Source: Gemmatimonas sp.
GTDB taxonomy: Bacteria; Gemmatimonadota; Gemmatimonadetes; Gemmatimonadales; Gemmatimonadaceae
Direction of reading: 5' to 3'
Length of the DNA stretch: 64,000 bases
Assembly (NCBI RefSeq): GCF_021298855.1
Contig: NZ_JAJTHI010000006.1
Location: forward strand, 1-64,000
Position numbers and translations under genes: made by a program. A model generated the notes under the pieces. The model searched no databases and had not been told where the DNA came from. It was given only the letters and a program-made list of their open reading frames with translations. Below are positions 9,569 through 23,275 of the stretch, piece after piece (within the stretch, counting starts at the first letter, position 1; every line of letters begins with the position of its first letter).

Positions 9569-10282
9569 ATGTCCGAACTCCGTGGAACGATGATGCAGTT
9601 TCCTGTCGCAGGCGCCAACGCGCCCGCGGGCCTCGCTACCGGGTACCTGTCACTCCCGCCATCGGGGAGCGGGCCCGGGCTGATTCTGCTGCAGGAGTGG
9701 TGGGGGCTCGTCGACCACATCAAGCAGGTTGCCGATCGGCTGGCGGCCGAGGGGTACGTGGTGCTGGCGCCGGATCTGTACCGCGGCGCATCCACGAGCA
9801 GCCCCGATGACGCCCAGCGGCTCATGATGGCGCTCGACCTGCCGTTTGCGGCGCAGGCCATGGGTGGTGCCGCCGACTGGCTGCATGCGCACGAGGCGGT
9901 CCACCCCAAGCGCGTGGGGGCGATGGGGTTCTGCATGGGGGGCCAGCTGGCGCTGTACGCGGCCACGGTCCATCCCGAGGCGATCGACGCCGTGGTGGAC
10001 TTCTACGGCGTGTTCAATCCGCACGTGCCGGTGGATTTGCGCCAGCTGCGGGCGCCGGTGCTGGCCCATTTCGGGGTGCACGACCGATCGATTCCCCGCG
10101 AGCAGGCGGAGCGCCTGTTGCGGGACATCACGCATGCCGGCGCCGATTGCGATGGCTACTTCTACGAAGCGGGGCACGCGTTCTTCAACGATTCGCGCCC
10201 GGCCGTGTATGACGCGGCGGCGGCGGCGCTGGCGTGGAACCGCACGCTGCCGTTCCTGCACTCCACGCTTGCCACGCACTGA
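9569..10282 (+). CDS. Dienelactone hydrolase family protein
   Basis: A 237-residue alpha/beta hydrolase. The nucleophile elbow GFCMGG carries the Cys typical of dienelactone hydrolases. The Asp of GVHDRSIP and the His of AGHAFFN complete the Cys-Asp-His triad. EWWGLVDHIKQVADRLA near residue 43 is a family signature. No ring-cleavage genes are nearby, so a role in chlorocatechol breakdown is unlikely; general ester or lactone hydrolysis is all that can be inferred. The 5'-nucleotidase gene starts 2 bp after the stop, so the two are probably cotranscribed. Confidence 0.88.
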   Translation: MSELRGTMMQFPVAGANAPAGLATGYLSLPPSGSGPGLILLQEWWGLVDHIKQVADRLAAEGYVVLAPDLYRGASTSSPDDAQRLMMALDLPFAAQAMGGAADWLHAHEAVHPKRVGAMGFCMGGQLALYAATVHPEAIDAVVDFYGVFNPHVPVDLRQLRAPVLAHFGVHDRSIPREQAERLLRDITHAGADCDGYFYEAGHAFFNDSRPAVYDAAAAALAWNRTLPFLHSTLATH

Positions 10283-10284
10283 TC

Positions 10285-11829
10285 ATGGCCCGTTCAGGAA
10301 TCGGTCTGCTGCTGTCGCTGCTCTGTGGTGCCTGCCTTCGTGCGCCGGCCGCGCCCACGCCGGCGCTGTCGACCGCGCCCGCCACCGTGCGCATGCTGCT
10401 GGTGAACGATGTGTACGTATCCGACACGCTGCGCGACGGCACGGGGGGACTGGCGCGCGTGGCGGCGTTGCGGGATTCCATTGAACGGGCGACGAACGCC
10501 AGGGTGCTGTTCATGCTTGCCGGGGATGTGCTCTCCCCGAGCGTGCTGGGGAAGTGGTACGGTGGCGCGCAGATGGTGGACGGCTTCAATGCCGCACGAC
10601 TGGATCTGGCCACCCTGGGCAATCACGAGTTCGACAACCCGCGCGCCAATCTCGTGGCACGGCTCGGGGAGTCGAGGTTCCAGTGGCTGAGTGGCAACTG
10701 CGGCGAGGCGAACGGCGCCCCCTTTCCCGGCGTGAAGGGGTGGGACACGCTGCGTGTGGGCACTGTGAAGGTGGGCATTCTGGGGACCACGGTCGTGCGT
10801 GACTATGCCCCTTGGGTGCGTTGCCGCAATGCCGACAGCGCCACCACCGCCCTGACAGACACGCTCGTGGCGCAGGGGGCGGAGCTCATCGTGGCACTCA
10901 CGCACCGCTTCATCTTCGAGGATGCGGTCACGCTCGCCACCGAGCCGCGCATTCAGGCCATTCTGGGCGGGCACGAGCATGATGGCCAGCGCGTGGTGCG
11001 CGACGGCCGGCTGCTCGTGAAAGCGGTCTCCAACGCGCGCACGGCGGTGCTGGTCACCTTCACGCGTGAAGGGAGCGGCGCCACCGCGCGCTGGCGCGTC
11101 GCCGACCAGCGCTTCGCGCTGACGCGCGGCATGCGCGAGGATCCGGCCACGCTGGCGTCGGTGCAGCGCTGGCGCGATACCCTCACCCGGCGCATCGGCC
11201 CCGACCGGGTTCTCGGTATCGCGCCGGAGCCCATCAACGCCATCGACTCCGTCTCCAAGCGGGAGAGTCGTTTCGGCAACATGATCACCGATGGCATGCG
11301 TGCCGGCACGGGGGCCGACGTGGCGCTGATCAATTCCGGCGCGTTGCGTTTCGACGACATGATGGCCGCCGGGCCGATCACCCGTCATCTCCTCGAAGCG
11401 GTGTTTCTGTTTGCCGACGAAACGCGGGCCGTGACCTTCCCGCTCACCGGGGCGCGCCTGCGCGAACTGCTGGAAACAGGGGTTCGCCAGGGGGCGCTGG
11501 GCGGCGGGGCCTATCCGCAGGTGAGCGGCGTGCACTTCCGGATCGACGCCAGACGCCCCAGCGGGAGTCGGGTGGTGGGCGACCTCACCCGCGACGATGG
11601 TCGGGTGATAGCACCGGGCGAGACCCTGCGCGTGACGTTCGTGACCTATCCGGCGTGCCGGTCGGGTGATGGGTATCGCATTCCCGAAGCGTCGGCCGCG
11701 TGCGAGCAGATCGCGCGGCAGCCGTCATCGGCCCCGCGTACGGTGGATCTCGTCGTGCAGCACCTCGAGCGCATGAACGGGCGCATCGTGGCGCCGCCAC
11801 TCGGGCGTGTGACGCGTCTCGACCGATAG
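10285..11829 (+). CDS. Exported 5'-nucleotidase / metallophosphoesterase
   Basis: A 514-residue secreted enzyme of the UshA family. A hydrophobic signal (LLLSLLCGACL) opens the protein; a Cys there may make it a lipoprotein, although the lipobox is atypical. The metallophosphatase domain has LLVNDVY (NDxH variant), AGDVLSP, LGNHEFDN and GGHEHDGQ. The C-terminal 5_nucleotid_C domain has FGNMITDGMR, INSGALR and TFPLTGARLRELLE. The usual His of the NDFH motif is replaced in NDVY, so activity may be altered. Probable role: periplasmic nucleotide dephosphorylation for phosphate or nucleoside salvage. Confidence 0.85.
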   Translation: MARSGIGLLLSLLCGACLRAPAAPTPALSTAPATVRMLLVNDVYVSDTLRDGTGGLARVAALRDSIERATNARVLFMLAGDVLSPSVLGKWYGGAQMVDGFNAARLDLATLGNHEFDNPRANLVARLGESRFQWLSGNCGEANGAPFPGVKGWDTLRVGTVKVGILGTTVVRDYAPWVRCRNADSATTALTDTLVAQGAELIVALTHRFIFEDAVTLATEPRIQAILGGHEHDGQRVVRDGRLLVKAVSNARTAVLVTFTREGSGATARWRVADQRFALTRGMREDPATLASVQRWRDTLTRRIGPDRVLGIAPEPINAIDSVSKRESRFGNMITDGMRAGTGADVALINSGALRFDDMMAAGPITRHLLEAVFLFADETRAVTFPLTGARLRELLETGVRQGALGGGAYPQVSGVHFRIDARRPSGSRVVGDLTRDDGRVIAPGETLRVTFVTYPACRSGDGYRIPEASAACEQIARQPSSAPRTVDLVVQHLERMNGRIVAPPLGRVTRLDR

Positions 11830-11886: not shown

Positions 11887-12699
11887 ATGAGCTCCCATCA
11901 CGAAGGACACGAGCCGTTGACGCCGCCTGGCGCCGACGTGTCATCCCGCTTCCGGCTCGACGGCAAGGTGGCCATCGTGACCGGCGGGACACGCGGCATC
12001 GGCCTGTCGGTCGCGTGCACCCTGGCGCGCGCGGGCGCGCGCGTGATGCTCTCGAGCCGCAAGGCCGACCATGTGGACAGCGCCGTGCGGGCGCTGCGGG
12101 CCGAAGGCCACGAGGTGCAGGGGCTGGTGGCCAACATGGGCAAGCCCCGTGAGGCGCACGAGCTGGCCGCGCGCACGGTCGAGCATTTCGACGGCATCGA
12201 CATCATCGTGAACAACGCGGCGACCAATCCCATCTTCGGCCCCCTGCAGCAGGCCACGGCGGACGCCTTCGACAAGATCTTCGACGTGAACGTGAAGGGG
12301 CCGTTCGAGCTGTGCAAGACGGCGCATGCCGTGATGGTCGAACGCGGCGGTGGGGCCATCGTGAACGTGTCGAGCATTGGCGGGATCACGCCGGAGGCCG
12401 GACTGGGGCTCTACAGCATGAGCAAGTCGGCGCTCATTTCGCTGACCAAGGTCATGGCCCAGGAGTGGGGTGCCGACGGCATCCGGGCCAACGCGATCTG
12501 CCCCGGGCTCATTCGCACGAGGTTCTCGGCGGCGCTGTGGCAGGATGGCGATATCGCCGAAAAGGTGCTGGGGCATCAGCCGATCCGCCGCATCGGTGTT
12601 CCCGACGATGTGGCCGGTCTGGCGCTCTTCCTGGCCTCGGACGCGTCGGCGTACTGCACCGGCGCCGTGTACATGGTGGACGGCGGATACCTGGCATGA
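11887..12699 (+). CDS. SDR family oxidoreductase (LvaD-like position)
   Basis: A 270-residue short-chain dehydrogenase. The cofactor loop is TGGTRGIG, with NNAATNP following, the catalytic Ser in IVNVSSIGG, Tyr and Lys in YSMSKSA, and a C-terminal VDGGYLA. It is a classical NAD(P)-dependent SDR. The ATG at 11887 gives a short N-terminal extension; an upstream start at 11839 is possible. Its stop overlaps the ATG of the acyl-CoA dehydrogenase (ATGA), so translation is coupled. With the APH-type kinase this makes a three-gene unit like part of the levulinate/4-hydroxyacid pathway. Confidence 0.88.
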   Translation: MSSHHEGHEPLTPPGADVSSRFRLDGKVAIVTGGTRGIGLSVACTLARAGARVMLSSRKADHVDSAVRALRAEGHEVQGLVANMGKPREAHELAARTVEHFDGIDIIVNNAATNPIFGPLQQATADAFDKIFDVNVKGPFELCKTAHAVMVERGGGAIVNVSSIGGITPEAGLGLYSMSKSALISLTKVMAQEWGADGIRANAICPGLIRTRFSAALWQDGDIAEKVLGHQPIRRIGVPDDVAGLALFLASDASAYCTGAVYMVDGGYLA

Positions 12700-13955
12700 C
12701 CGTACGGTCCTCGGAGTCCGCTCTGACCATCACGCCGTGGACGGCGCTGGAGCCACTGCTCGAAACGGCCCGGCGATTCGTGCGCGAGGAGTTGGTCCCG
12801 CTCGAAGGGACCATGCTCACGCAGCCTTGGCACGCCACGGAGGCAACCCTCAACGTCTTGCGCGTGCGGGCGCGCGCCCTGGGATTGTGGGCGCCGTTCC
12901 TGCCGGTGGAGTACGGTGGTCTCGACATGCCGCTCGACGCGTTTGCGCAGCTGAGCGAAGTGCTGGGGTGGACGCCGTTCGGACACTACGTGTGCAACTG
13001 CCAGGCCCCCGACGTGGGGAACATGGAGCTGCTGCTGGCCTTCGGCACGGAGGCGCAGAAGCGGGAGTATCTGGAGCCGCTCGCGCGCGGCGACATCCGC
13101 AGCTGCTTCGCGATGACGGAGCCGGAGCACGCCGGATCGAATCCCGTGGTGCTGTCCACCACGGCCGTGCGCGACGAGACGCACTGGGTCATCAACGGCC
13201 ACAAATGGTTCACCAGCAGCGCCGACGGCGCGGCGTTCGCGGTGGTCATGGCGGTGACCGACGCCGACGAAACGCGTCGGCACGCTCGTGCCAGCCAGAT
13301 CCTCGTGCCGCTGCAGAGCCCCGGCGTGCGCCTCGTGCGCAACATCTCGGTCATGGGAGAATCGGGGGGCGGGTGGGGCAGTCATGCCGAGCTGCGCTTC
13401 GAGGACGTGCGCGTGCCGGTGGATCAGCTCATCGGTCTGCAGGGGCATGGCTTCGCCCTCGCGCAGGAGCGTCTGGGGCCTGGTCGCATTCACCACTGCA
13501 TGCGCTGGATCGGCATCTGCGAGCGCGCTTTCGACCTCATGTGCCGTCACGCAACCTCACGCGAGCTGGCTCCCGGCGAGCTGCTGGCCAGCAAGCAGCA
13601 GGTGGAGTTCTGGATCGCCGAGTCGCGCATCGAGATTCATGCGTCGCGGCTCATGGTGCTCGACGCCGCGCGCCGCACGGCCGCGCAGGGTCAGGAAGCG
13701 GCGCGCGAGGAGATCGGGTACATCAAGGTGTTCGTGGCCAACACGCTGCAGCGGGTGCTCGATCGTGCCATTCAGGTGCACGGGGCGCGGGGAGTCACGG
13801 ACGACACGCCGCTGGCCTGGTGGTATCGCCATGAGCGCGCGGCGCGCATCTACGACGGCGCCGACGAAGTACACAAGTCGGTCATCGCGCGGCGGGCCCT
13901 GCGAGGGTATCTGACGGAGCGCCGGCCGCCGCGCGCGCCGGGCGCACCGCTCTAG
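12696..13955 (+). CDS. Acyl-CoA dehydrogenase family protein (ACAD11/LvaC-like)
   Basis: A 419-residue flavoprotein. Recognisable segments are FAMTEPEHAGSNP (FAD/substrate loop), INGHKWFTSSADGA, GGWGSHAELRFEDVRVP, GRIHHCMRWIG and, near the end, QVHGARGVTDDTPLAWWYRHERAARIYDGADEVH. The C-terminal segment and the GRIHHCMR motif match the ACAD10/ACAD11 branch. In that branch the enzyme works with an APH-type kinase domain on 4-hydroxyacyl-CoAs. The start codon overlaps the SDR stop. The kinase gene follows 14 bp downstream. Confidence 0.88.
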   Translation: MTVRSSESALTITPWTALEPLLETARRFVREELVPLEGTMLTQPWHATEATLNVLRVRARALGLWAPFLPVEYGGLDMPLDAFAQLSEVLGWTPFGHYVCNCQAPDVGNMELLLAFGTEAQKREYLEPLARGDIRSCFAMTEPEHAGSNPVVLSTTAVRDETHWVINGHKWFTSSADGAAFAVVMAVTDADETRRHARASQILVPLQSPGVRLVRNISVMGESGGGWGSHAELRFEDVRVPVDQLIGLQGHGFALAQERLGPGRIHHCMRWIGICERAFDLMCRHATSRELAPGELLASKQQVEFWIAESRIEIHASRLMVLDAARRTAAQGQEAAREEIGYIKVFVANTLQRVLDRAIQVHGARGVTDDTPLAWWYRHERAARIYDGADEVHKSVIARRALRGYLTERRPPRAPGAPL

Positions 13956-13969
13956 CGCGGGCGGCGCGC

Positions 13970-15061
13970 GTGAGTGACGCGACCATCCCGCCGGGCGACG
14001 TCCGCGCGCTGCCGGTGGCGACACTGCACCGGTGGTTGACGGGCGCCCTCCCGTCCCTCGTGTCCGGCGCCAGTACGATCACGGTGGAGCAGTTTCCGGC
14101 GGGCTTCTCCAACCTCACGTACCGTGTGGATGTGGACAACGGCGGATGCGCGCATTCGCTCGTCTTGCGGCGACCGCCGCACGGGGTGGCGGGCGGCGTC
14201 GCTCACGACATGGTGCGTGAGTACGGCATTCTGGAGGCGCTGCAGGGAACCGGGGTTCCCGTTCCGGCACCCCTGGCCTGCTGTGCCGACCCCGCCGTTG
14301 TTGGCGCGCCGTTCTATGTGATGGAACTGGTGGAGGGGCGCATCGTTCGCGGCGCGCCACCGCCGGACTGGGCGCGAGATGAGCAGGGGCTCGCGGCGCG
14401 CATGCGGCAGCTGTCGCACGCGTTCGCGACGACGCTGGCGGCGCTGCATGCGGTCCCCGTACACGGCGCCCTCGCGTCGTTGGGGCGACCGCAGGGCTAC
14501 GTGGCGCGCCAGGTGGAGGGGTGGACCCGCCGCTGGATCGCCGCGCGTACGCACGACGTGCCTGCCATGGATCGGCTCGCCACCTGGCTGGCCGCACACC
14601 AACCCGCCAGTGAGCGCGTCGCCCTGCTGCACAACGACTTCAAGATCGACAACCTCGTGCTCGATGACGATGGCACCACCGTGCGTGCCATTCTCGATTG
14701 GGAGATGGCCACCATCGGCGATCCGCTGCTCGACCTGGGCACGAGCCTCGCGTACTGGGTGGAGGCGGGCGATCCGCCCCTCTTCGCGGCCCTCGGGCTC
14801 GGCGTCACGGCACTGCCGGGCAGCCTCACTCGCCGCGAGCTCATCGAGGCCTATGGGCAGGCCGTGGGGGAGCCGGTGATGAACGCCCGCTTCGCGCTCT
14901 GTTTCGGCCGATTCAAGGTGGCCGTGATTGCCCAGCAGATCTTCGCGCGCTACCGCCAGGGGCACACCACCGACCGGCGGTTCGCGATACTGGGTGACGT
15001 CGTGCCGGCCCTCGCCACGCTGGCAGCGCAGGAGCTGGAGGGGACCGGACGGGGCCGGTGA
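13970..15061 (+). CDS. APH-family phosphotransferase (ACAD10/11-type kinase)
   Basis: A 363-residue protein of the aminoglycoside phosphotransferase fold. It has FPAGFSNLTYRV (nucleotide-loop region), LVLRRPP with the ATP-contacting basic residues, VPVPAPLACC, FYVMELVEGRIV (hinge), a Brenner-type catalytic motif in LLHNDFKIDNLVL and the metal-binding ILDWEMATIGDPLLDLG. These features match the kinase half of ACAD10/11 and LvaA-like enzymes rather than antibiotic resistance kinases. In that pathway it phosphorylates the 4-hydroxyl group of 4-hydroxyacyl-CoA. GTG start at 13970. Third gene of the SDR-ACAD-APH operon. Confidence 0.85.
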   Translation: MSDATIPPGDVRALPVATLHRWLTGALPSLVSGASTITVEQFPAGFSNLTYRVDVDNGGCAHSLVLRRPPHGVAGGVAHDMVREYGILEALQGTGVPVPAPLACCADPAVVGAPFYVMELVEGRIVRGAPPPDWARDEQGLAARMRQLSHAFATTLAALHAVPVHGALASLGRPQGYVARQVEGWTRRWIAARTHDVPAMDRLATWLAAHQPASERVALLHNDFKIDNLVLDDDGTTVRAILDWEMATIGDPLLDLGTSLAYWVEAGDPPLFAALGLGVTALPGSLTRRELIEAYGQAVGEPVMNARFALCFGRFKVAVIAQQIFARYRQGHTTDRRFAILGDVVPALATLAAQELEGTGRGR

Positions 15062-15124
15062 TTGCGGCGGAAGGCGAAGGAAGGCAGAATCGTGCGTTCC
15101 CCTCCTTCCCTTCCGTCGACTCCC

Positions 15125-18100
15125 ATGCCTCGTTCCCCCCTGTTCGCCGCCCTGACCGCGCCGCTGTGCACGTGGTCGTTGAGCACGTTGTCGTTGTGCG
15201 CCACGCTCGGGGCGCAGTCCGCACGTCAGGCGGCGCCCGCCCCGCGCGGAGTGCCCGACTCCACCTTTTTCGGGCTGTCGTATCGCAACATCGGTCCCGC
15301 CAACATGAGCGGCCGCATCGCGACCGTCGTCGGCGTACCGGGCGACCCGTCGCTCATCTATGTGGGCAGTGCCTCGGGTGGTGTGTGGAAGTCCACCAAT
15401 GCGGGCACCACGTGGACCCCCATCTTCGACCGGCAGCCGGTGCAGACGATCGGGGACATCGTGCTCGAGCCGGGAAATCCGGACGTCGTGTACGTGGGGT
15501 CGGGTGAGGGCAATCCGCGCAACTCGGTGTCGTTCGGCAACGGGATCTACCGGAGCCGCGACGGCGGCAAGTCGTGGACGTGGCTTGGCCTCGCCGATTC
15601 CCGGCACATCACGCGCATGGCCATCAATCCGCGTGATCCGCGCACGGTGTACGCGGCGGCGCTGGGGTCCGAGTACGGCCCCGGTACCGAGCGGGGGGTG
15701 TTCATGTCGGAGGACGGCGGCGAAACGTGGAAGCGCACGCTGTACGTGAGCGATCGCCACGGCGCCTCGGATCTCGATATCGACCCGCAGAACCCGAATG
15801 TGCTGTACGCCGGCATGTGGTACTTCGACCGCAAGCAGTGGACGCACACCTCGGGCGACGACAAGGGTGGCCTGTTCAAATCGGTCGATGGGGGCAAGAC
15901 GTGGACGAAGCTCACCAAGGGGTTGCCGGCGCTCATGGGGCGCATTGGCGTGAAGGTGGCCCCGAGCAATCCGCGCACGGTGTACGCGGTGATGGAAACG
16001 AAAGAAGGGTTCGTGTTCCGCTCCGACGACGCCGGGGAGAGCTGGCAGAAGGTGAGCAGCAACGCCAACACGATTGGCCGTGGCTTCTATTATGCCGACC
16101 TGCGCGTGGACCCGAAGAACGAGCATCACGTGTACACCCTCGGGATGTCGTTCATGCACAGCATCGATGGCGGGCGCACCTTCACGAACGTGCCGGGCAA
16201 CTTTCACGGCGATCATCAGGCGCTCTGGATCGATCCGCTCAACCCGAAGCGGTTGCTCATGGGTGACGACGGCGGTCTCGAGGTGAGCTACGACGGCGCC
16301 GGTGGCTGGGAGTGGTTCGGCAATCTCCCGCTCGGGCAGTTCTACCAGCTGTCGTACGATATGCGCGAGCCCTTCTACCATGTGGCCGGCGGACTGCAGG
16401 ACAACGGCGTGTGGACCGGCCCGACCCGCACGCGGAAGAGCGCCATCTTCCTCTGGGACTGGCGCTTCATCCAGTACGGTGACGGGTACTATGCCATCTC
16501 GCATCCCGATGATCCCGACTGGTTCCTGAGCGACTATCAGGCCGGTGGCATTCAGGCCACGCATCTGGGGCGCTACGAGGTGCGCGAAGCGTCGCCGCAG
16601 CCCAAGCGCATGGATGGCTATTCCGCCGACTCCAATGCGGTGCGCTTCAACTGGAACGCGCCCATCGTGCCGTCTCCGCACGATCCGCGCGTGGTGTACT
16701 TCGGTGGCAGCACGCTCTTCCGCAGCACGGACTGGGGGCGCACCTGGACGGCGCTGGGCGGAGACCTGAGCAAGAACGACAAGACGCGGCAGGGGAACGC
16801 CGGCGGCCCCATTCTCAAGGAAAACACGGTGGCCGAGTACTACGGCACCATCTATTCGTTCGCCGAAAGCCCGGCCCGGAAAGGCGTGCTGTGGGCGGGC
16901 ACCGATGACGGCAACCTGCAGGTCTCGCAGGATGATGGAAAGACGTGGACGAACGTCGCGCCCAACGTGCCGGGGATGGGGCCCGACGCGGTGGTCAGCG
17001 GTATCGAAGCGTCTCGCACCGCCGCCGGCACGGCGTACGCGACCTTCGAACGGCACATGAGCGACGACTTCAAGCCGTATGTGTTCAAGACCACCGACTT
17101 CGGGCGAACGTGGACCAACATCACCGGCAACCTGCCGGCGAACGCCTACGCGCAGGTGATTCGCGAAGATCCCAGAAACCCGAACCTGCTGTACTACGGT
17201 TCGGAGTATGGCCTGTTCGCCAGCTGGACCGGCGGAACCCAATGGACGAAGCTGTCGCTCAAGAACCTGCCCAACGTGGCGGTGCACGAAGTGCTGGTGC
17301 ATCCGCGGGAGAACGACCTCATCGTGGCCACGCACGGCCGGGCCCTCTGGGTGTTCGATGACGCGTCGCCCATTCAGCAGATGTCCGCCGCGATCGCGGC
17401 GAAGCCGGTGCACCTCTTCCCCATGCGTGTGGCAACGCGATTCAATCTGGGCGATCAGTCGCTCAACTTCGGCCACAAGCAGTACCGCGGGCAGAATGCG
17501 GCGTACGGCGCCCTCATCACCTACTGGCTCGCGCGCAGCGACAGCTCGGTGACGGTGGAGATCCTGAAGGACGGGCAGGTCATTCGGCAGCTGCGCAAGC
17601 CACCTGTGGCCGCCGGGTTCAACCGCACCACGTGGGACCTGCGCATGGCCCCGTCGCTGGCGTTGAGCGAAACACCCGCCGACAGCGCCGACGAGGATGG
17701 CGCCCGGGGGCGTGTACCGGGAGCGCAGGTGCTGCCGGGGAGCTACACGGTGCGCATCACGGTGGGCGGGCAGAGCCAGGAGCAGCCGCTCACGGTGCGG
17801 CTCGATCCGACGGCCACCTTTGCCGATGCCGACGTGAAGCTGCAGTTCGCCCAGGCCACACGGCTTGTCGCGACGGTGAACACCCTCATCGAGACGGAAC
17901 GCGGGCTGGCCGCCTTTGCGGTGCAGGCGCAGGAGCGGTCGAACACGGCCAACACCCTGCGCGCCGACGCCGCGCGGGAGCTGGTCGCCGCGACGAAGGA
18001 GGAACTGCGGAAGCTCGATTCGGTTCGGCTGCAGCTCACGCGTCCCTCCACCGACGTGGCGCCCTACTACTCGGAAGGCCCGCGGCCGCTGCAGCGCGCA

Positions 18101-18310
18101 TCGGCGCTGCTCGCCAACATCGATGCCGGGCTCACGCCCGTCATTCCCGGACAGGTGGAGTACACCGGAGAGGTGCGGCGTGATGCCGACGTGGTGATGA
18201 CGATGATCGATACGCAGATTCGCGCCACCGCCACCCGACTCAACCCCATGCTGGAGAAGCTCGACCTGCCCAAGCTGGTGGTGCCGGTGAAGAAACCTCT
18301 GGCCATGTAA
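15125..18310 (+). CDS. Secreted BNR/sortilin (VPS10)-like repeat protein
   Basis: A protein of about 1061 residues exported by a Sec signal ending near LGAQSA. The body is a set of beta-propeller blades with repeated Asp-box motifs (SxDxGxTW type): STNAGTTWTPI, SRDGGKSWTWLG, SEDGGETWKRT, SVDGGKTWTKL, SDDAGESWQKV, STDWGRTWTALG, SQDDGKTWTNV and TTDFGRTWTNI. A C-terminal beta-sandwich/helical portion follows (residues 760-1061). It resembles the glycosyl-hydrolase/photosystem-assembly-like BNR proteins often annotated as VPS10. True activity is unknown; glycan binding or cleavage is possible. A strong terminator follows. Confidence 0.85.
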   Translation: MPRSPLFAALTAPLCTWSLSTLSLCATLGAQSARQAAPAPRGVPDSTFFGLSYRNIGPANMSGRIATVVGVPGDPSLIYVGSASGGVWKSTNAGTTWTPIFDRQPVQTIGDIVLEPGNPDVVYVGSGEGNPRNSVSFGNGIYRSRDGGKSWTWLGLADSRHITRMAINPRDPRTVYAAALGSEYGPGTERGVFMSEDGGETWKRTLYVSDRHGASDLDIDPQNPNVLYAGMWYFDRKQWTHTSGDDKGGLFKSVDGGKTWTKLTKGLPALMGRIGVKVAPSNPRTVYAVMETKEGFVFRSDDAGESWQKVSSNANTIGRGFYYADLRVDPKNEHHVYTLGMSFMHSIDGGRTFTNVPGNFHGDHQALWIDPLNPKRLLMGDDGGLEVSYDGAGGWEWFGNLPLGQFYQLSYDMREPFYHVAGGLQDNGVWTGPTRTRKSAIFLWDWRFIQYGDGYYAISHPDDPDWFLSDYQAGGIQATHLGRYEVREASPQPKRMDGYSADSNAVRFNWNAPIVPSPHDPRVVYFGGSTLFRSTDWGRTWTALGGDLSKNDKTRQGNAGGPILKENTVAEYYGTIYSFAESPARKGVLWAGTDDGNLQVSQDDGKTWTNVAPNVPGMGPDAVVSGIEASRTAAGTAYATFERHMSDDFKPYVFKTTDFGRTWTNITGNLPANAYAQVIREDPRNPNLLYYGSEYGLFASWTGGTQWTKLSLKNLPNVAVHEVLVHPRENDLIVATHGRALWVFDDASPIQQMSAAIAAKPVHLFPMRVATRFNLGDQSLNFGHKQYRGQNAAYGALITYWLARSDSSVTVEILKDGQVIRQLRKPPVAAGFNRTTWDLRMAPSLALSETPADSADEDGARGRVPGAQVLPGSYTVRITVGGQSQEQPLTVRLDPTATFADADVKLQFAQATRLVATVNTLIETERGLAAFAVQAQERSNTANTLRADAARELVAATKEELRKLDSVRLQLTRPSTDVAPYYSEGPRPLQRASALLANIDAGLTPVIPGQVEYTGEVRRDADVVMTMIDTQIRATATRLNPMLEKLDLPKLVVPVKKPLAM

Positions 18311-18325
18311 GGCACCCGAGGCACA

Positions 18326-18366
18326 AAACTCGAAACTCCCCGTGAGCCGCGGGGAGTTTCGAGTTT
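18326..18366. terminator. Bidirectional hairpin terminator
   Basis: A perfect 17-bp inverted repeat, arms 18326-18342 and 18350-18366 with a 7-base loop, lies between two convergent genes (stops at 18310 and 18409). There is no long T-run, but each arm ends in an A/T triplet on its outer side. Position and symmetry fit termination from both directions. Confidence 0.8.
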
Positions 18367-18408
18367 CGGGGTACGGGGAGACCACGCGAACAACGCCAGC
18401 TGCATACC

Positions 18409-19584
18409 TCAGCCCGCGAACACCTCGAAGATGCCTGCCGCGCCCATGCCACCGCCGATGCACATGGTCACCATGCCATAGCCGCCACCACGCCGACGCA
18501 GTTCATGCACCAGCTGCGTGGTGAGTTTGGCGCCGGTGGCACCCAGCGGATGCCCCAGCGCGATCGCACCCCCGTTCACGTTGATGATGTCGGTCGGCAG
18601 GTCGAGCTCCTTGATGACGGCGAGTGCCTGAGCGGCAAACGCCTCGTTGAACTCGATGAGATTGAGGTCGGCGAGCGTGAGCCCGGCGCGCGCCAGCGCC
18701 TTGGGCACCGCCGCAATGGGACCGACCCCCATGATGTCGGGTGAGACGCCCCCGGTGGCGAAGCTCACGAAGCGGGCGAGCGGCGTGAGCCCCAGCGCCT
18801 GCGCCCGGTCGGCGCGCATGAGCAGCACCGCGCCCGCACCGTCCGAATAGGGACTCGCGTTGCCGGCCGTCACGGTCCCGGTGGGAACAAACGCCGGACG
18901 CAGCTTGGCGAGGCCGTCCAGCGTCGTCTCCGCACGCGGGGTTTCATCGGTATCGAACAGCACATCGGTGACCGCCTTCTCGGCGCCCTGCCACCGGTAC
19001 GACTGCGTGCGGATGGGGACGATCTCCTCCCGGAACACGCCGTTCGCAATGGCACGTACGGCGCGCTGCTGGCTGTCGAAGGCGAACTGGTCCTGCTGCT
19101 CGCGCGTGATGGACCACTGCTTCGCCACGCGCTCGGCGGTGAATCCCATGCCGATGTAGCTCTCGGTGAGGTCCGGTGAGAGCCGCGTGTTGTAGCCGCT
19201 CATGGGGACCTGTGACATCATCTCGATGCCACCCGCCAGGACGGCATCCCCGTGTCCGGCCATGATGGCCTGCGCGGCATACGCCACCGACTGCAGCCCG
19301 GAGGCGCAGAAGCGGTTGATGGTGGCGGCGGACGTGGTCACCGGCAGCCCACCCCGCAGCCACGCCAGCCGCGCGTGATTGAGTCCCTGCGACGCCTCGG
19401 GCATGGCGCACCCCCATTGCACATCCTCGATGTGCGCCGGGTCCACCCCGGCGCGGTCAATCGCCGCCTTCATGACGGCGGCGGACAGATCCACCGGGTG
19501 CACGCCCGCCAACGCCCCATCGCTCTTGCCGCGCGCCACGGCGCTGCGGGCACAACTGACGATCACGACCTCGGTCATCTCCAT
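18409..19584 (-). CDS. fadA: Thiolase, acetyl-CoA C-acyltransferase
   Basis: A 391-residue thiolase. The acyl-accepting Cys lies in [10 protein letters not shown]. The C-terminal motifs [29 protein letters not shown] (catalytic His) and [10 protein letters not shown] (second Cys) are intact. It catalyses the last step of beta-oxidation, CoA-dependent cleavage of 3-ketoacyl-CoA. It lies 12 bp downstream of the dehydrogenase/hydratase gene in the same operon, the FadN-FadA arrangement, which supports beta-oxidation rather than acetoacetyl-CoA synthesis. Confidence 0.92.
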
Positions 19585-19596
19585 CTCCTGTCGCGC

Positions 19597-21909
19597 TCAG
19601 TTGCGCAGCGGCTTGCCGGTCTTGAGGGTGTAGGCGATGCGCTCCTGTGTTTCCCTGGTGCCCAGGAGCGACAGGAACTGCTCGCGTTCGAGGTCGAGGA
19701 TGTCCTGCTCCGTCACGTCACGCGCCGTACCGTCGCCGCCGCAGAGGACGTAGGCCACGGCGCGCCCCACGCGCACGTCGTGGGCACTCGCCTGACCGGC
19801 TTCCTTCGCCGCCCAGAGCGCATACTCGAGATTGCCGATGCCTTCACGCCCCAGCGCGCGCACGCGACGCTCGAGGGGTGGCAGGTATCCCGGCGCCAGA
19901 TCGAGCACTCGCTGCTTCGCGTCGCTGATCTGGTGGTCACGGTTCATGGAGATGCGGTCGCCGTCGCGAAGGAAGCCGAAGGCGCGCGCCTCGAAGGCCG
20001 ACGTGCTGGTGGTGGCGAAGGCAATGAGCTTGAAGGCGCGCTTGACGGCGGCAAAGAGATCCACCTCCTCGTACTGCTGCAGCTCACCGGTGAAGCGCAT
20101 GAGCAGCTCCTTGGTCCCGCCGCCGCCGGGAAGCAGCCCCACGCCCACCTCCACCAGCCCCATGTACGTCTCGGCGTGCGCCTGCACCGCAGCGGCGTGC
20201 AGCGTGAACTCCGCGCCGCCGCCCAGCGTCATGCCCGCGGGGGCCACGACCACGGGAAACGGGGCGCGCCGAATGGACATGGTGGCGTTCTGGAAGGTGC
20301 GGATGGACGCGTCGATATCGTCCCACGCTCCGGCCGAGACGGCGAAGGATACCAGCGAGAGGTCGGCGCCCACACTGAAGGCGCGCGCATCCTCGTTGCC
20401 GATGATCATGCCGTTGAAACCAAGCTGTTCGACCTTCCGGAGCGACTGCTCCAGCCCTTCCAGCACACCCTGTCCCAGGCTGTTCATCTTGCTGCGGAAC
20501 TCGAAGCAGGCCACCCCATCGCCCACATCGAGCAGGCGCGAGAGACCATTGTCCATGAGGACGCGCCCGCTGGCGGCCAGGCCGGCCAGCGCGATACGCC
20601 CCGGGATGCCGGGGATCGGTTCGTAGGTACCGTCGAAGGTGAGGTACTCGCCCTGCCGATAGAAGCTGCCCTGCGCAAGATCGAGGAGCGCGGGAATGTC
20701 GAGTCCCTCGGCCTTGAACTGTTCGCGCAGCCAGTCGAGGCCGAGCGCGTCCATGACCTGAAACGGACCCGCTTCCCACCCGTAGCCCCACTCCATGGCA
20801 CGATCGATCGCCACGATGTCATGGGCCAGTTGCGAGGCGAGCGTGAGCGTGTAGTGCGCCGCATCCACGACATGATCGCGGATGAAGGCGCCTAGCGCGC
20901 CGGGAATGCTCTTGATGGCGGGGAGTCGCTGTGCCGCTGGAAGGCGAATGGCCGCGCCGATGTCTCCGCCTTCGAGCCGCTGCTGCGGCACATACTCCTT
21001 GGTCTTCCAGTCGAAGGTGAGCGTGCCCGCCTTCGTCTTCTGGTAGAAGCCACCGCCGCTCTTGTCGCCCAGCTTGCCCTTGGCCACGAGCTCGTCGTGC
21101 ACCCATGCCGGGAGTGCGAAGTCCTCGCCAGTGGTGGCGCCAATACCGCGAGTGACGTGGGCCAGCACATCGAGTCCGGAGAGATCGCCGGTGCGGAACG
21201 TGGCCGAGCGGGCCCGGCCGATGAGCGACCCCGTGAGTCCGTCCACCTCGTCGATGGTGAGGCCGTGCTGCTCCATGCGCCGCATGGTGGCGACCATGCC
21301 GAACACGCCGAGGCGGTTGGCAATGAACCCCGGCACGTCCTTGGCGAGCACGATCCCCTTGCCGAGCGTTCGCTCGGCAAAGCTGCGCATGGCTCCGATG
21401 ACGGCATGATCGGTCTCGGGGGTGGGGATCACCTCGAGCAGGTGCATGTACCGCGGCGGATTGAAGAAGTGCGTGCCCAGGAAGCGGCGGCGGAATCTTT
21501 CGCCGCGCCCCTCGAGCAGGACGGCCATGGGGATGCCCGACGTGTTCGAGGAGACGATCGCCGTGGGCTTCATGAGCGCCTCGATCTTCGCGAACAGCTC
21601 CTGCTTGGGCGCGGGCTGCTCGATGATCGCCTCGCAGATCCAGTCGCACTCGGCAAGCCACGACAGATGATCGGCGGTGTTGCCGGTCCGCACGCGGCTG
21701 GCCGCTGCCGCTTCCATGAAGCTGGCCGGCTTGCTCTTGATGGCCTTCTGCAAGCCGGTGCGAGCGGGGGCACTGCGATTGGGCGACGCAGGATCCGGGT
21801 CACCGGGGATGTCGAGCAGCACGACACGGCACCCGGCTGACGCCGCCAGTGCCGCGATGCCGCTCCCCATGGCGCCGGCGCCTACCACGCCGACGGTCGT
21901 CACACGCAT
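19597..21909 (-). CDS. fadN: 3-hydroxyacyl-CoA dehydrogenase / enoyl-CoA hydratase (FadN type)
   Basis: A 770-residue bifunctional enzyme with the dehydrogenase first. The NAD fold GVVGAGAMGSGIAALAA is at residues 5-21, and the catalytic region includes SSNTSGI, GTHFFNPPRYMHLLEVI and VLAKDVPGFIANRLG. The hydratase module is in the C-terminal third, with GMTLGGGAEFTLHA and MGLVEVGVGLLPGGGG carrying the oxyanion Gly and Glu. This order (HADH then ECH) is FadN-like, unlike FadB. ATG at 21909 sits directly before the Rossmann strand. Upstream, 167 bp separates it from the divergent hybrid kinase. Confidence 0.9.
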   Translation of the reverse strand: MRVTTVGVVGAGAMGSGIAALAASAGCRVVLLDIPGDPDPASPNRSAPARTGLQKAIKSKPASFMEAAAASRVRTGNTADHLSWLAECDWICEAIIEQPAPKQELFAKIEALMKPTAIVSSNTSGIPMAVLLEGRGERFRRRFLGTHFFNPPRYMHLLEVIPTPETDHAVIGAMRSFAERTLGKGIVLAKDVPGFIANRLGVFGMVATMRRMEQHGLTIDEVDGLTGSLIGRARSATFRTGDLSGLDVLAHVTRGIGATTGEDFALPAWVHDELVAKGKLGDKSGGGFYQKTKAGTLTFDWKTKEYVPQQRLEGGDIGAAIRLPAAQRLPAIKSIPGALGAFIRDHVVDAAHYTLTLASQLAHDIVAIDRAMEWGYGWEAGPFQVMDALGLDWLREQFKAEGLDIPALLDLAQGSFYRQGEYLTFDGTYEPIPGIPGRIALAGLAASGRVLMDNGLSRLLDVGDGVACFEFRSKMNSLGQGVLEGLEQSLRKVEQLGFNGMIIGNEDARAFSVGADLSLVSFAVSAGAWDDIDASIRTFQNATMSIRRAPFPVVVAPAGMTLGGGAEFTLHAAAVQAHAETYMGLVEVGVGLLPGGGGTKELLMRFTGELQQYEEVDLFAAVKRAFKLIAFATTSTSAFEARAFGFLRDGDRISMNRDHQISDAKQRVLDLAPGYLPPLERRVRALGREGIGNLEYALWAAKEAGQASAHDVRVGRAVAYVLCGGDGTARDVTEQDILDLEREQFLSLLGTRETQERIAYTLKTGKPLRN

Positions 21910-22075
21910 TCGGGCTCTCTCCGTAAGGGATGCGTGGAACTTCCGCCCGGGACACGGGGAGCGGAAGGGGGTGGCCGGGAAAAAGACGACGGGGGCGTCA
22001 TGTTTTGCCGCAGCCGCGCGGCGGCGTTGCCGTGATGGCCGGAAACGGCACGCCCCCCATGCGGCGGGGGGCACC

Positions 22076-23275
22076 GTGGCGGGGGAGGGCACGCCGCTGT
22101 TGCTGTCCGGGTTGTCGCCGGACATCACCACCGGCAAGACTGCCGAACGGGCGCTCCCGGTGGCGAATCGTCGCAAGGATGCGTTGCTGGCCACACTCGC
22201 GCACGCGTTGCGCTCTCCGCTCGCGCCCATCCGCCGCGCGGCCGAAGTCTTGCGGATGCTCGCCCACAAGGACCCCACCAGGCAGAACGCGGTGGGTATC
22301 ATCGACCCTCAGGTGAGCCAAATGGTACGACACGTGGACAACCTGCTCGACGTGCACCGCATCAGCCGCGGCGACATGCTGCTGCGTGCCGAACGCGTGG
22401 ACGTGGCGAGTGCCGTGCGGGCCGCCGTGGAAACGAGCCGGCCTCTCATCGAGGCCGGCGAGCACCACGTGCTGATGAGCCTGCCGCACGCGCCCATCAC
22501 CATCACCGGCGATGCGGCACGCCTGGCGCAGGCGCTGTCGAACCTGCTCGACCACGCCGCGCACGACACGCCCACGGGCGGACAGATCGCGTTGACGGTG
22601 GTGCGCGACGGAGCTCGGGTGCGCATTGCCGTGACCGGCAATGGCGGCGGCCTCCTCGCCGACCGATGCGACGATGTCTTCGCGTTGTCCAGCCGGGTGC
22701 AGCACGATGGGCAGGGCGCGCTCGGCATTGGTCTCGCACTGGTCCGGGGCATCGTGCAGCTGCACGGGGGCGAGGTGCGCGCGCTCGGCGACGGTCAGGG
22801 GCAGGGGTGTAGCTTCGAGATGTGGTTGCCTGTGACAGAACCGCTCCCCTCCCCCGACATGGCGCCGTCGGTCACGGCCAATGGGGTGCCGGCAGCAGCG
22901 GTGGGCGCCAAAGCGCAGGGGCTGCGCATTCTCATCGTGGACGACAACGTCGATTTCGCCGAGAGCGAAGCGACGATGCTCGAACTCACGCAGCACATCG
23001 TGTGTGTGGTGCACGATGCACGCGCCGCCCTCGATGTGGTGCCCGTTTTCGCGCCTGATGTGGCGCTCCTCGACATTGGCCTGCCGGGAATGGACGGGTA
23101 CGAACTGGCGGCCCGGTTGCGCGCGGATCCGGCCAACGCCGACCTCGTGCTCATTGCACAGACGGGGTGGGGACAGCCGGCCGACCGGGAGCGCGCGTTG
23201 GCTCTGGGGTTCCGCGCGCACCTCACCAAGCCGGTGGACTGGGCCACGCTCGAGCGTGTCCTCGTGCGCGCGTGA
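22076..23275 (+). CDS. Hybrid histidine kinase-like protein with degenerate ATP site
   Basis: A protein of about 399 residues with three modules. The HisKA region (about 30-95) has the H-box LLATLAHALRSPLAPIRRA with His43. The HATPase_c region (about 140-255) follows. The receiver (about 284-398) has phospho-acceptor Asp in LLDIGLPGMDGYE and Lys in HLTKPVDW. In the ATPase domain the N-box reads NLLDHAAHDTP, so the Mg-binding Asn is replaced by His160. The G1 box reads VTGNGGGL, with Gly188 in place of the adenine-binding Asp. The G2 box GIGLALVRGIVQLHGG is normal. No sensor domain is present. GTG at 22076 has a G-rich tract 5 bp upstream; the true start is uncertain. Confidence 0.75.
   Translation: MAGEGTPLLLSGLSPDITTGKTAERALPVANRRKDALLATLAHALRSPLAPIRRAAEVLRMLAHKDPTRQNAVGIIDPQVSQMVRHVDNLLDVHRISRGDMLLRAERVDVASAVRAAVETSRPLIEAGEHHVLMSLPHAPITITGDAARLAQALSNLLDHAAHDTPTGGQIALTVVRDGARVRIAVTGNGGGLLADRCDDVFALSSRVQHDGQGALGIGLALVRGIVQLHGGEVRALGDGQGQGCSFEMWLPVTEPLPSPDMAPSVTANGVPAAAVGAKAQGLRILIVDDNVDFAESEATMLELTQHIVCVVHDARAALDVVPVFAPDVALLDIGLPGMDGYELAARLRADPANADLVLIAQTGWGQPADRERALALGFRAHLTKPVDWATLERVLVRA

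Follow-up and report, generated by a model that had tools for sequence, protein, structure and literature searches.

The window analysed here is a 64,000-nucleotide stretch of Gemmatimonas sp. DNA (assembly GCF_021298855.1, contig NZ_JAJTHI010000006.1, positions 1 to 64,000 of the forward strand), and this report concerns a three-gene operon within it, at 11887-15061, which is a candidate bacterial counterpart of mammalian ACAD10 and ACAD11. The operon encodes, all on the + strand, a short-chain dehydrogenase/reductase (SDR), an acyl-CoA dehydrogenase (ACAD) and an APH-fold kinase (Table 1). The coordinates confirm the tight packing noted in a first-pass annotation, with a 4-bp overlap between the SDR and ACAD genes and a 14-bp gap between the ACAD and kinase genes, and the thiolase and FadN-type genes that it placed 3.3 kb downstream on the opposite strand are indeed found there. 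Loci and genomes are cited below by our own L and G numbers.

Table 1. Operon genes, diagnostic codons and neighbouring genes, with positions in the window (MD, molecular dynamics)
Feature	Position	Strand	Remarks
SDR oxidoreductase, 270 aa	11887..12699	+	ATG start; Pfam adh_short_C2 7.5e-63
ACAD10/11-type acyl-CoA dehydrogenase (putative), 419 aa	12696..13955	+	ATG start; Acyl-CoA_dh N, M and C domains, best 4.1e-36
ACAD R259 codon	13470..13472	+	mouse ACAD11 R626 (phosphate-contacting), by alignment
ACAD H267-C-M-R270 codons	13494..13505	+	HCMR motif, mouse H634..R637
ACAD D387 codon	13854..13856	+	catalytic Asp, mouse D753; Glu in ordinary ACADs
APH-fold kinase, 363 aa	13970..15061	+	GTG start; Pfam APH 2e-48
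Kinase R83 codon	14216..14218	+	ACAD11 R86, CoA contact in MD
Kinase R180 codon (GYVARQVEGW)	14507..14509	+	ACAD11 R176, CoA contact in MD
Kinase catalytic motif D223-F-K-I-D-N228	14636..14653	+	ACAD11 D220, N225
5'-nucleotidase-type phosphoesterase	10234-11829		upstream of operon
VPS10/BNR-repeat protein	15062-18310		downstream of kinase, between cassette and thiolase-FadN
Thiolase (acetyl-CoA C-acyltransferase)	18409..19584	-	about 3.3 kb downstream, convergent; kept in genus loci read
FadN-type 3-hydroxyacyl-CoA dehydrogenase/enoyl-CoA hydratase	19597..22302	-	convergent neighbour; kept in genus loci read

The closest solved structures of the window ACAD are ACAD11 chains (PDB 2wbi, 4.1e-87; mouse 8v3u, 1.6e-84), and the alignment that yields the correspondences in Table 1 also shows R264 kept as the equivalent of mouse R631. 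Residues R626, H634, R637 and D753 of ACAD11 have been linked to the handling of 4-phosphoacyl-CoA and probed by mutation, the ACAD domain being hit hardest by non-conservative changes at R626, H634 and R637, with only a partial effect of R637K (PMC12440821). Both the motif and the catalytic Asp are kept in 24 of the 24 ACADs found in the genus and in a sister-genus ACAD (L025). The overall ACAD fold would suit an ordinary enzyme coupled to flavin adenine dinucleotide (FAD) and electron-transferring flavoprotein, in an operon for some other acyl-CoA whose phosphorylation serves export or regulation, but such a reading is very improbable given the replacement of the catalytic Glu by Asp and the R/HCMR cluster. 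The motif (as HxMR) occurs in none of the seven readable ACADs among the eight other loci of the same genome (L153 was not recovered), six of them with Glu as the catalytic residue (that of L152 was not found by pattern), and PMC12440821 describes conventional ACADs as lacking these phosphate-handling residues. The window ACAD is thus a probable 4-phosphoacyl-CoA phosphate-eliminating enzyme.

A tree of 69 ACADs was built from the named-genome loci (the best 80 of a longer list), of which it took L045-L083 and nine of the other 41, and, as outgroup, four of the seven recovered own-genome ACADs; all trees reported here (ACAD, kinase and SDR) were run in 'quick' mode with SH-aLRT support only and hold four or five of the 24 genus rows, the window included. 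The 62 HCMR-type rows, some carrying variants such as HAMR, HVMR, HGMR and HCMN, separate from seven ordinary rows with a support of 99. The window ACAD lies in a 34-row clade (99) of Gemmatimonadota relatives, Chloroflexota, Bacteroidota, Planctomycetota, Acidobacteriota, Myxococcota, Thermodesulfobacteriota and Pseudomonadota; mouse ACAD11 belongs to a clade of 11 rows (99) joined to it at 84, and the ACADs of the Pseudomonas levulinate (lva) type form a separate four-row clade (98). Since the window ACAD falls outside the ACAD11 clade in this tree, it is filed under the same type of system as a different ACAD subfamily, and the operon would add a member, in a third ACAD clade, to a known kind of system.

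A PDB sequence search with the kinase returned 9o56 (1.2e-72), deposited under the title 'Aminoglycoside phosphotransferase', mouse ACAD11 (8.4e-46) and 3dxp (1e-44). The two ACAD11 arginines that contact CoA in simulation, R86 and R176 (PMC12440821), both have equivalents in the window kinase, as does the catalytic motif, making it a probable 4-hydroxyacyl-CoA kinase. Its generic APH fold, and best NCBIfam matches (sub-threshold) to thiamine and macrolide kinases, could instead suggest a small-molecule kinase for an antibiotic, a sugar or choline that stands beside a fatty-acid operon incidentally. This too is very unlikely: the NCBIfam scores are far below cut-off (best 40.1 of 299.45 bits), both CoA-contacting arginines are present, and, as described below, the gene is inherited all-or-none with the ACAD in the genus, adjoins it across phyla and is fused to the pathway SDR in another lineage. 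A kinase 50% identical to that of the window adjoins an AMP-binding acyl-CoA ligase at L044, in a genome whose HCMR-type ACAD (L034) lies on a different contig.

The SDR, whose closest solved structures are of DHRS4 (PDB 3o4r, 1.9e-61; 2zat, 6.2e-60), belongs to a 22-row clade (99) in which 18 rows are near this type of kinase and the other four (L047, L048, L058 and L060) are upstream of the same type of ACAD. It is probably a 4-oxoacyl-CoA/4-hydroxyacyl-CoA oxidoreductase.

The operon is very probably a bacterial ACAD10/11-type module through which 4-hydroxy acids would enter beta-oxidation, composed of an SDR, a kinase independent of LvaB and a phosphate-eliminating ACAD. An acyl-CoA ligase encoded elsewhere would make the 4-hydroxy- or 4-oxoacyl-CoA, and the SDR would convert 4-oxoacyl-CoA to 4-hydroxyacyl-CoA. 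The kinase would then phosphorylate the 4-hydroxyl, holding the CoA moiety by its own arginines with no need of an LvaB partner. In the ACAD, Asp387 would act as base and FAD as a transient hydride holder, with R259, H267 and R270 gripping the phosphate, so that a redox-neutral elimination of phosphate would give 2-enoyl-CoA, and this would pass into beta-oxidation via the neighbouring FadN and thiolase. The first-pass annotation had likewise proposed phosphorylation of a 4-hydroxyacyl-CoA followed by conversion for beta-oxidation, and the diagnostic residues, the all-or-none inheritance and the conserved thiolase-FadN pair support that proposal. It had also remarked that an acyl-CoA ligase is missing in the window, and a search of the genome indeed found no AMP-binding domain on the window's contig. 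The LvaB- and LvaE-like genes that it suggested might lie elsewhere in the genome fared differently: AMP-binding domains gave 12 matches on other contigs, 11 of them above cut-off, but DUF6285, at first a guess for LvaB, gave none in the genome (G000) at E <= 0.01.

Inheritance was followed in 61 genomes (30 of the same genus, including its own, and 31 others) with thresholds of E <= 1e-60 for the ACAD and E <= 1e-30 for the kinase. Within the genus, 24 of 30 genomes contain both genes and the remaining six contain neither; the kinase adjoins the ACAD at all 24 loci and the SDR adjoins at 22, the two exceptions being one locus at a contig edge and one true absence (L013/L043). The thiolase and FadN genes are convergent downstream in all six genus loci (L038-L043) for which 16-18 kb was read, with the VPS10/BNR gene in between in the window and L038 and not in L039-L043. 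At four loci fetched from the six genomes without the cassette (L175-L178), the upstream flank (IspH) lies 83-293 bp from thiolase-FadN; at L175 this flank also includes the 5'-nucleotidase gene beside IspH, and the short contig of L178 holds only the end of IspH. The G013 locus was left out, and the thiolase search gave nothing for G023 at E <= 1e-100. The genes of the operon are inherited together, as a cassette. All three genes are also present at a sister-genus locus (L037), where a 36%-identical VPS10/BNR relative lies upstream of the cassette. The 1-Mb plasmid 2 of Gemmatirosa kalamazoonensis (L143) carries an ACAD of the same type (64%) and a kinase (51%), with no SDR match in the 13 kb fetched.

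The same association extends well beyond the genus. Among the matches listed, 28 named-genome loci (L045-L072) belong to the window's ACAD clade, and 21 of them, in seven phyla by the tree labels, have a kinase match nearby, which is downstream on the same strand in 20 cases (up to 1.6 kb away) and divergent in one. The order SDR-ACAD-kinase, with a clear SDR, recurs in six more of these loci (L046, L050, L052, L053, L056 and L066), and in a gammaproteobacterial metagenome-assembled genome the kinase and SDR are fused in a single 623-aa open frame (L069:2035-3903). Because this order is kept genus-wide and recurs in Chloroflexota and Bacteroidota, the grouping of the genes is not due to chance. 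These findings indicate that an equivalent of the recently discovered human pathway for 4-hydroxy fatty acids is widespread in bacteria, in several phyla as a three-gene unit; this equivalent is distinct from the levulinate operon, and its natural variants could be used to dissect the unusual redox-neutral ACAD chemistry. Five members of the clade (L047, L048, L049, L060 and L068) have no kinase match in the region fetched, and no contig end right after the ACAD gene accounts for this.

Several observations weigh against this interpretation. Outside the genus, the ACAD was found at the thresholds used in only four of the 31 relatives and the kinase in three of those four, and one non-genus relative has the two genes on different contigs. 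The genome of L013/L043 keeps the ACAD and kinase without an SDR at the locus, and kinase identity within the genus (approximately 55-62%) is lower than that of the ACAD and SDR (approximately 71-88%), the nearest relative (L002) aside. Neither a thiolase nor a FadN match was found within 16 kb at the sister-genus locus L037, nor was a thiolase-FadN match found near the genes on the Gemmatirosa plasmid. Seven of the 28 window-clade loci, among the matches listed, have no kinase match in the stretch fetched (in two of these the contig ends no more than about 1 kb from the ACAD), and a kinase match was present in the stretch fetched at 40 of the best 80 named loci. In addition, five Pseudomonas loci (L135-L138 and L140) encode a related kinase-SDR pair without such an ACAD beside it, and 11 of 29 SDR rows near a kinase do not belong to the window's SDR clade. 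The window ACAD falls in a clade with no assayed member known to us, and both ACAD11 and the lva-type ACADs are placed in others.

The first-pass annotation had described the operon as levulinate-type, and the Pseudomonas lva operon (lvaRABCDEFG) was represented in our comparisons by two loci identified from their gene order and Pfam domains, L144 (from the Pseudomonas sp. Kh13 genome, G063) and L145. The order at L144 is sigma-54/PrpR-type regulator, kinase, DUF6285, ACAD, SDR, AMP-binding ligase and DUF485, which is the published lva order by which the locus was recognised (PMC6692424), and L145 resembles it with a histidine phosphatase inserted. DUF6285 is apparently LvaB, as backed by its position and size at these two loci and not by identity to the P. 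putida protein. The ACAD10 and ACAD11 domains are reported to be 62% and 56% identical to P. putida LvaC (PMC11342911), whereas LvaC of L144 shares 38.5% identity with the stretch of mouse ACAD11 compared here, so L144 may be an lva-type operon more distant than that of P. putida.

The operon studied here and the lva operon share a kinase, an ACAD and an SDR, tight packing, the catalytic Asp and the H-C-M-R motif, all of which would suit a genuine levulinic-acid (lva) operon, but that identity is improbable. The genome has no LvaB/DUF6285 and no LvaE beside the operon; across 248 genomes (its own and relatives), DUF6285 gave two matches, one above cut-off (G036), where it comes after an lva-like ACAD and kinase (L036). 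The window ACAD is 39.4% identical to LvaC of L144 versus 44.9% to mouse ACAD11, and the window kinase 30.6% identical to LvaA of L144 versus 36.7% to the ACAD11 kinase. A branch with a support of 100 separates the window kinase from that of L144, and the two SDRs (35.6% identical) lie in different parts of the SDR tree. The lva-type kinase has no arginine at the R176 position, where the window kinase has R180. A scan of the immediate operon neighbours found 5'-nucleotidase-type, VPS10/BNR, thiolase and FadN genes, unlike LvaR, LvaF and LvaG. The levulinate identity was therefore dropped. As for the suggestion that the three genes correspond to LvaD, LvaC and LvaA or to the two halves of ACAD10/11, the enzyme classes hold and the Lva identity does not, as the genome encodes no LvaB-type protein, the contig carries no ligase and all three proteins branch in clades separate from those of L144; the ACAD10/11 halves are the better option.

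Like mammalian ACAD10 and ACAD11 (PMC12440821, PMC11342911), the window system has both catalytic modules, HCMR, the extra Arg, the catalytic Asp and the CoA-contacting kinase arginines, and it has no LvaB gene, just as the mammalian proteins were assayed without LvaB. Unlike them, it is encoded by separate genes 14 bp apart, with the ACAD before the kinase and the SDR co-encoded, and its ACAD is of a neighbouring clade; the bacterial orthologues that are reported to replace each part of ACAD10 are likewise separate proteins (PMC11342911). The P. citronellolis levulinate cluster, compared by description only, shares a kinase, an ACAD and an SDR with the window, with no lvaB reported for it, but differs in its histidine phosphatase, ligase and LvaR-type regulator; its LvaA, LvaC and LvaD homologues are 59%, 78% and 67% identical to those of P. 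putida (PMC6692424). The Pseudomonas kinase-SDR pair mentioned above belongs to the same clades as the window proteins (kinase 38-41% and SDR 40-44% identical) and is preceded by a histidine phosphatase (the Pfam check covered L136 alone). Unlike the window, it has no ACAD match in the stretch fetched, and the same genomes carry an HCMR-type ACAD elsewhere with no kinase match nearby.

The R176 position also distinguishes kinases more widely. An arginine element was defined as R-[QE]-hydrophobic-x-x-W, and a kinase was considered linked to DUF6285 if the latter was fused or within 600 bp. Of 92 kinases (excluding duplicates L001, L037-L043, L125-L134, L141 and L142, and counting L076/L158 and L086/L163 twice), 70 have the element and no DUF6285 beside them, 24 of these being from the window's own genus; 21 (19 distinct loci) are linked or fused to DUF6285 and have no element; none has both; and L106 alone scores as having neither, although both arginines are present in its alignment row. 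With a limit of 400 bp, L156 also scores as neither. In the alignment, the R176 arginine is missing in 16 of 16 DUF6285 loci tested and present in 55 of the 60 rows of the first set, the five lacking it all being DUF6285-linked. The linked or fused kinases without the element are L154-L167, L141/L142, L036, L073 and L098, and in 10 of the 16 loci found through DUF6285 the kinase and this domain are fused in a single open frame. On the kinase tree, which omits L087 (a long branch) and near-copies, the contrast appears as a single split with a support of 100 and one change, so it amounts to a single contrast in evolution rather than a series of independent cases. R86 was considered as a second marker of the two lineages and dropped, as 4 of 16 DUF6285-linked kinases retain it.

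In Pseudomonas, LvaB interacts with LvaA, and strains without either failed to grow on levulinate (PMC6692424). The missing arginine in DUF6285-linked kinases may explain why LvaA needs LvaB, which offers a testable reason for the difference from ACAD10/11, which do not require it; a literature search on DUF6285 found no paper. It is conceivable, though we hold it only tentatively, that there are two ancient lineages of 4-hydroxyacyl-CoA kinase, one with a built-in R-Q-x-x-x-W arginine, working solo and accompanied by an SDR clade near DHRS4 (ACAD10/11 and the window), and the other Arg-less, through loss or original absence, typified by LvaA and dependent on LvaB (DUF6285, often fused), with mammalian DHRS4 perhaps serving as the 4-oxoacyl-CoA reductase that supplies ACAD11. 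DHRS4 was the top PDB SDR match for all four system SDRs tried and is absent from the nine PDB matches listed for LvaD of L144. It is peroxisomal, like ACAD11. Because its placement in the SDR tree is weak (support 59), DHRS4 is kept as a lead for the SDR counterpart; the main text of PMC12440821 and PMC11342911 mentions none of DHRS4, LvaD and LvaB.

Two features of the surrounding reading frames concern annotation. The FadN-type open reading frame is over-extended at its N-terminus by approximately 130 residues, as its best NCBIfam match begins at residue 132, and the true start of the protein is probably near residue 131 of the listed frame (19597-22302), which overlaps a frame on the opposite strand (21677-23275). 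An antisense open frame of 1503 codons (13952-18463, - strand) spans the kinase and VPS10/BNR genes and is probably an artefact of high GC content.

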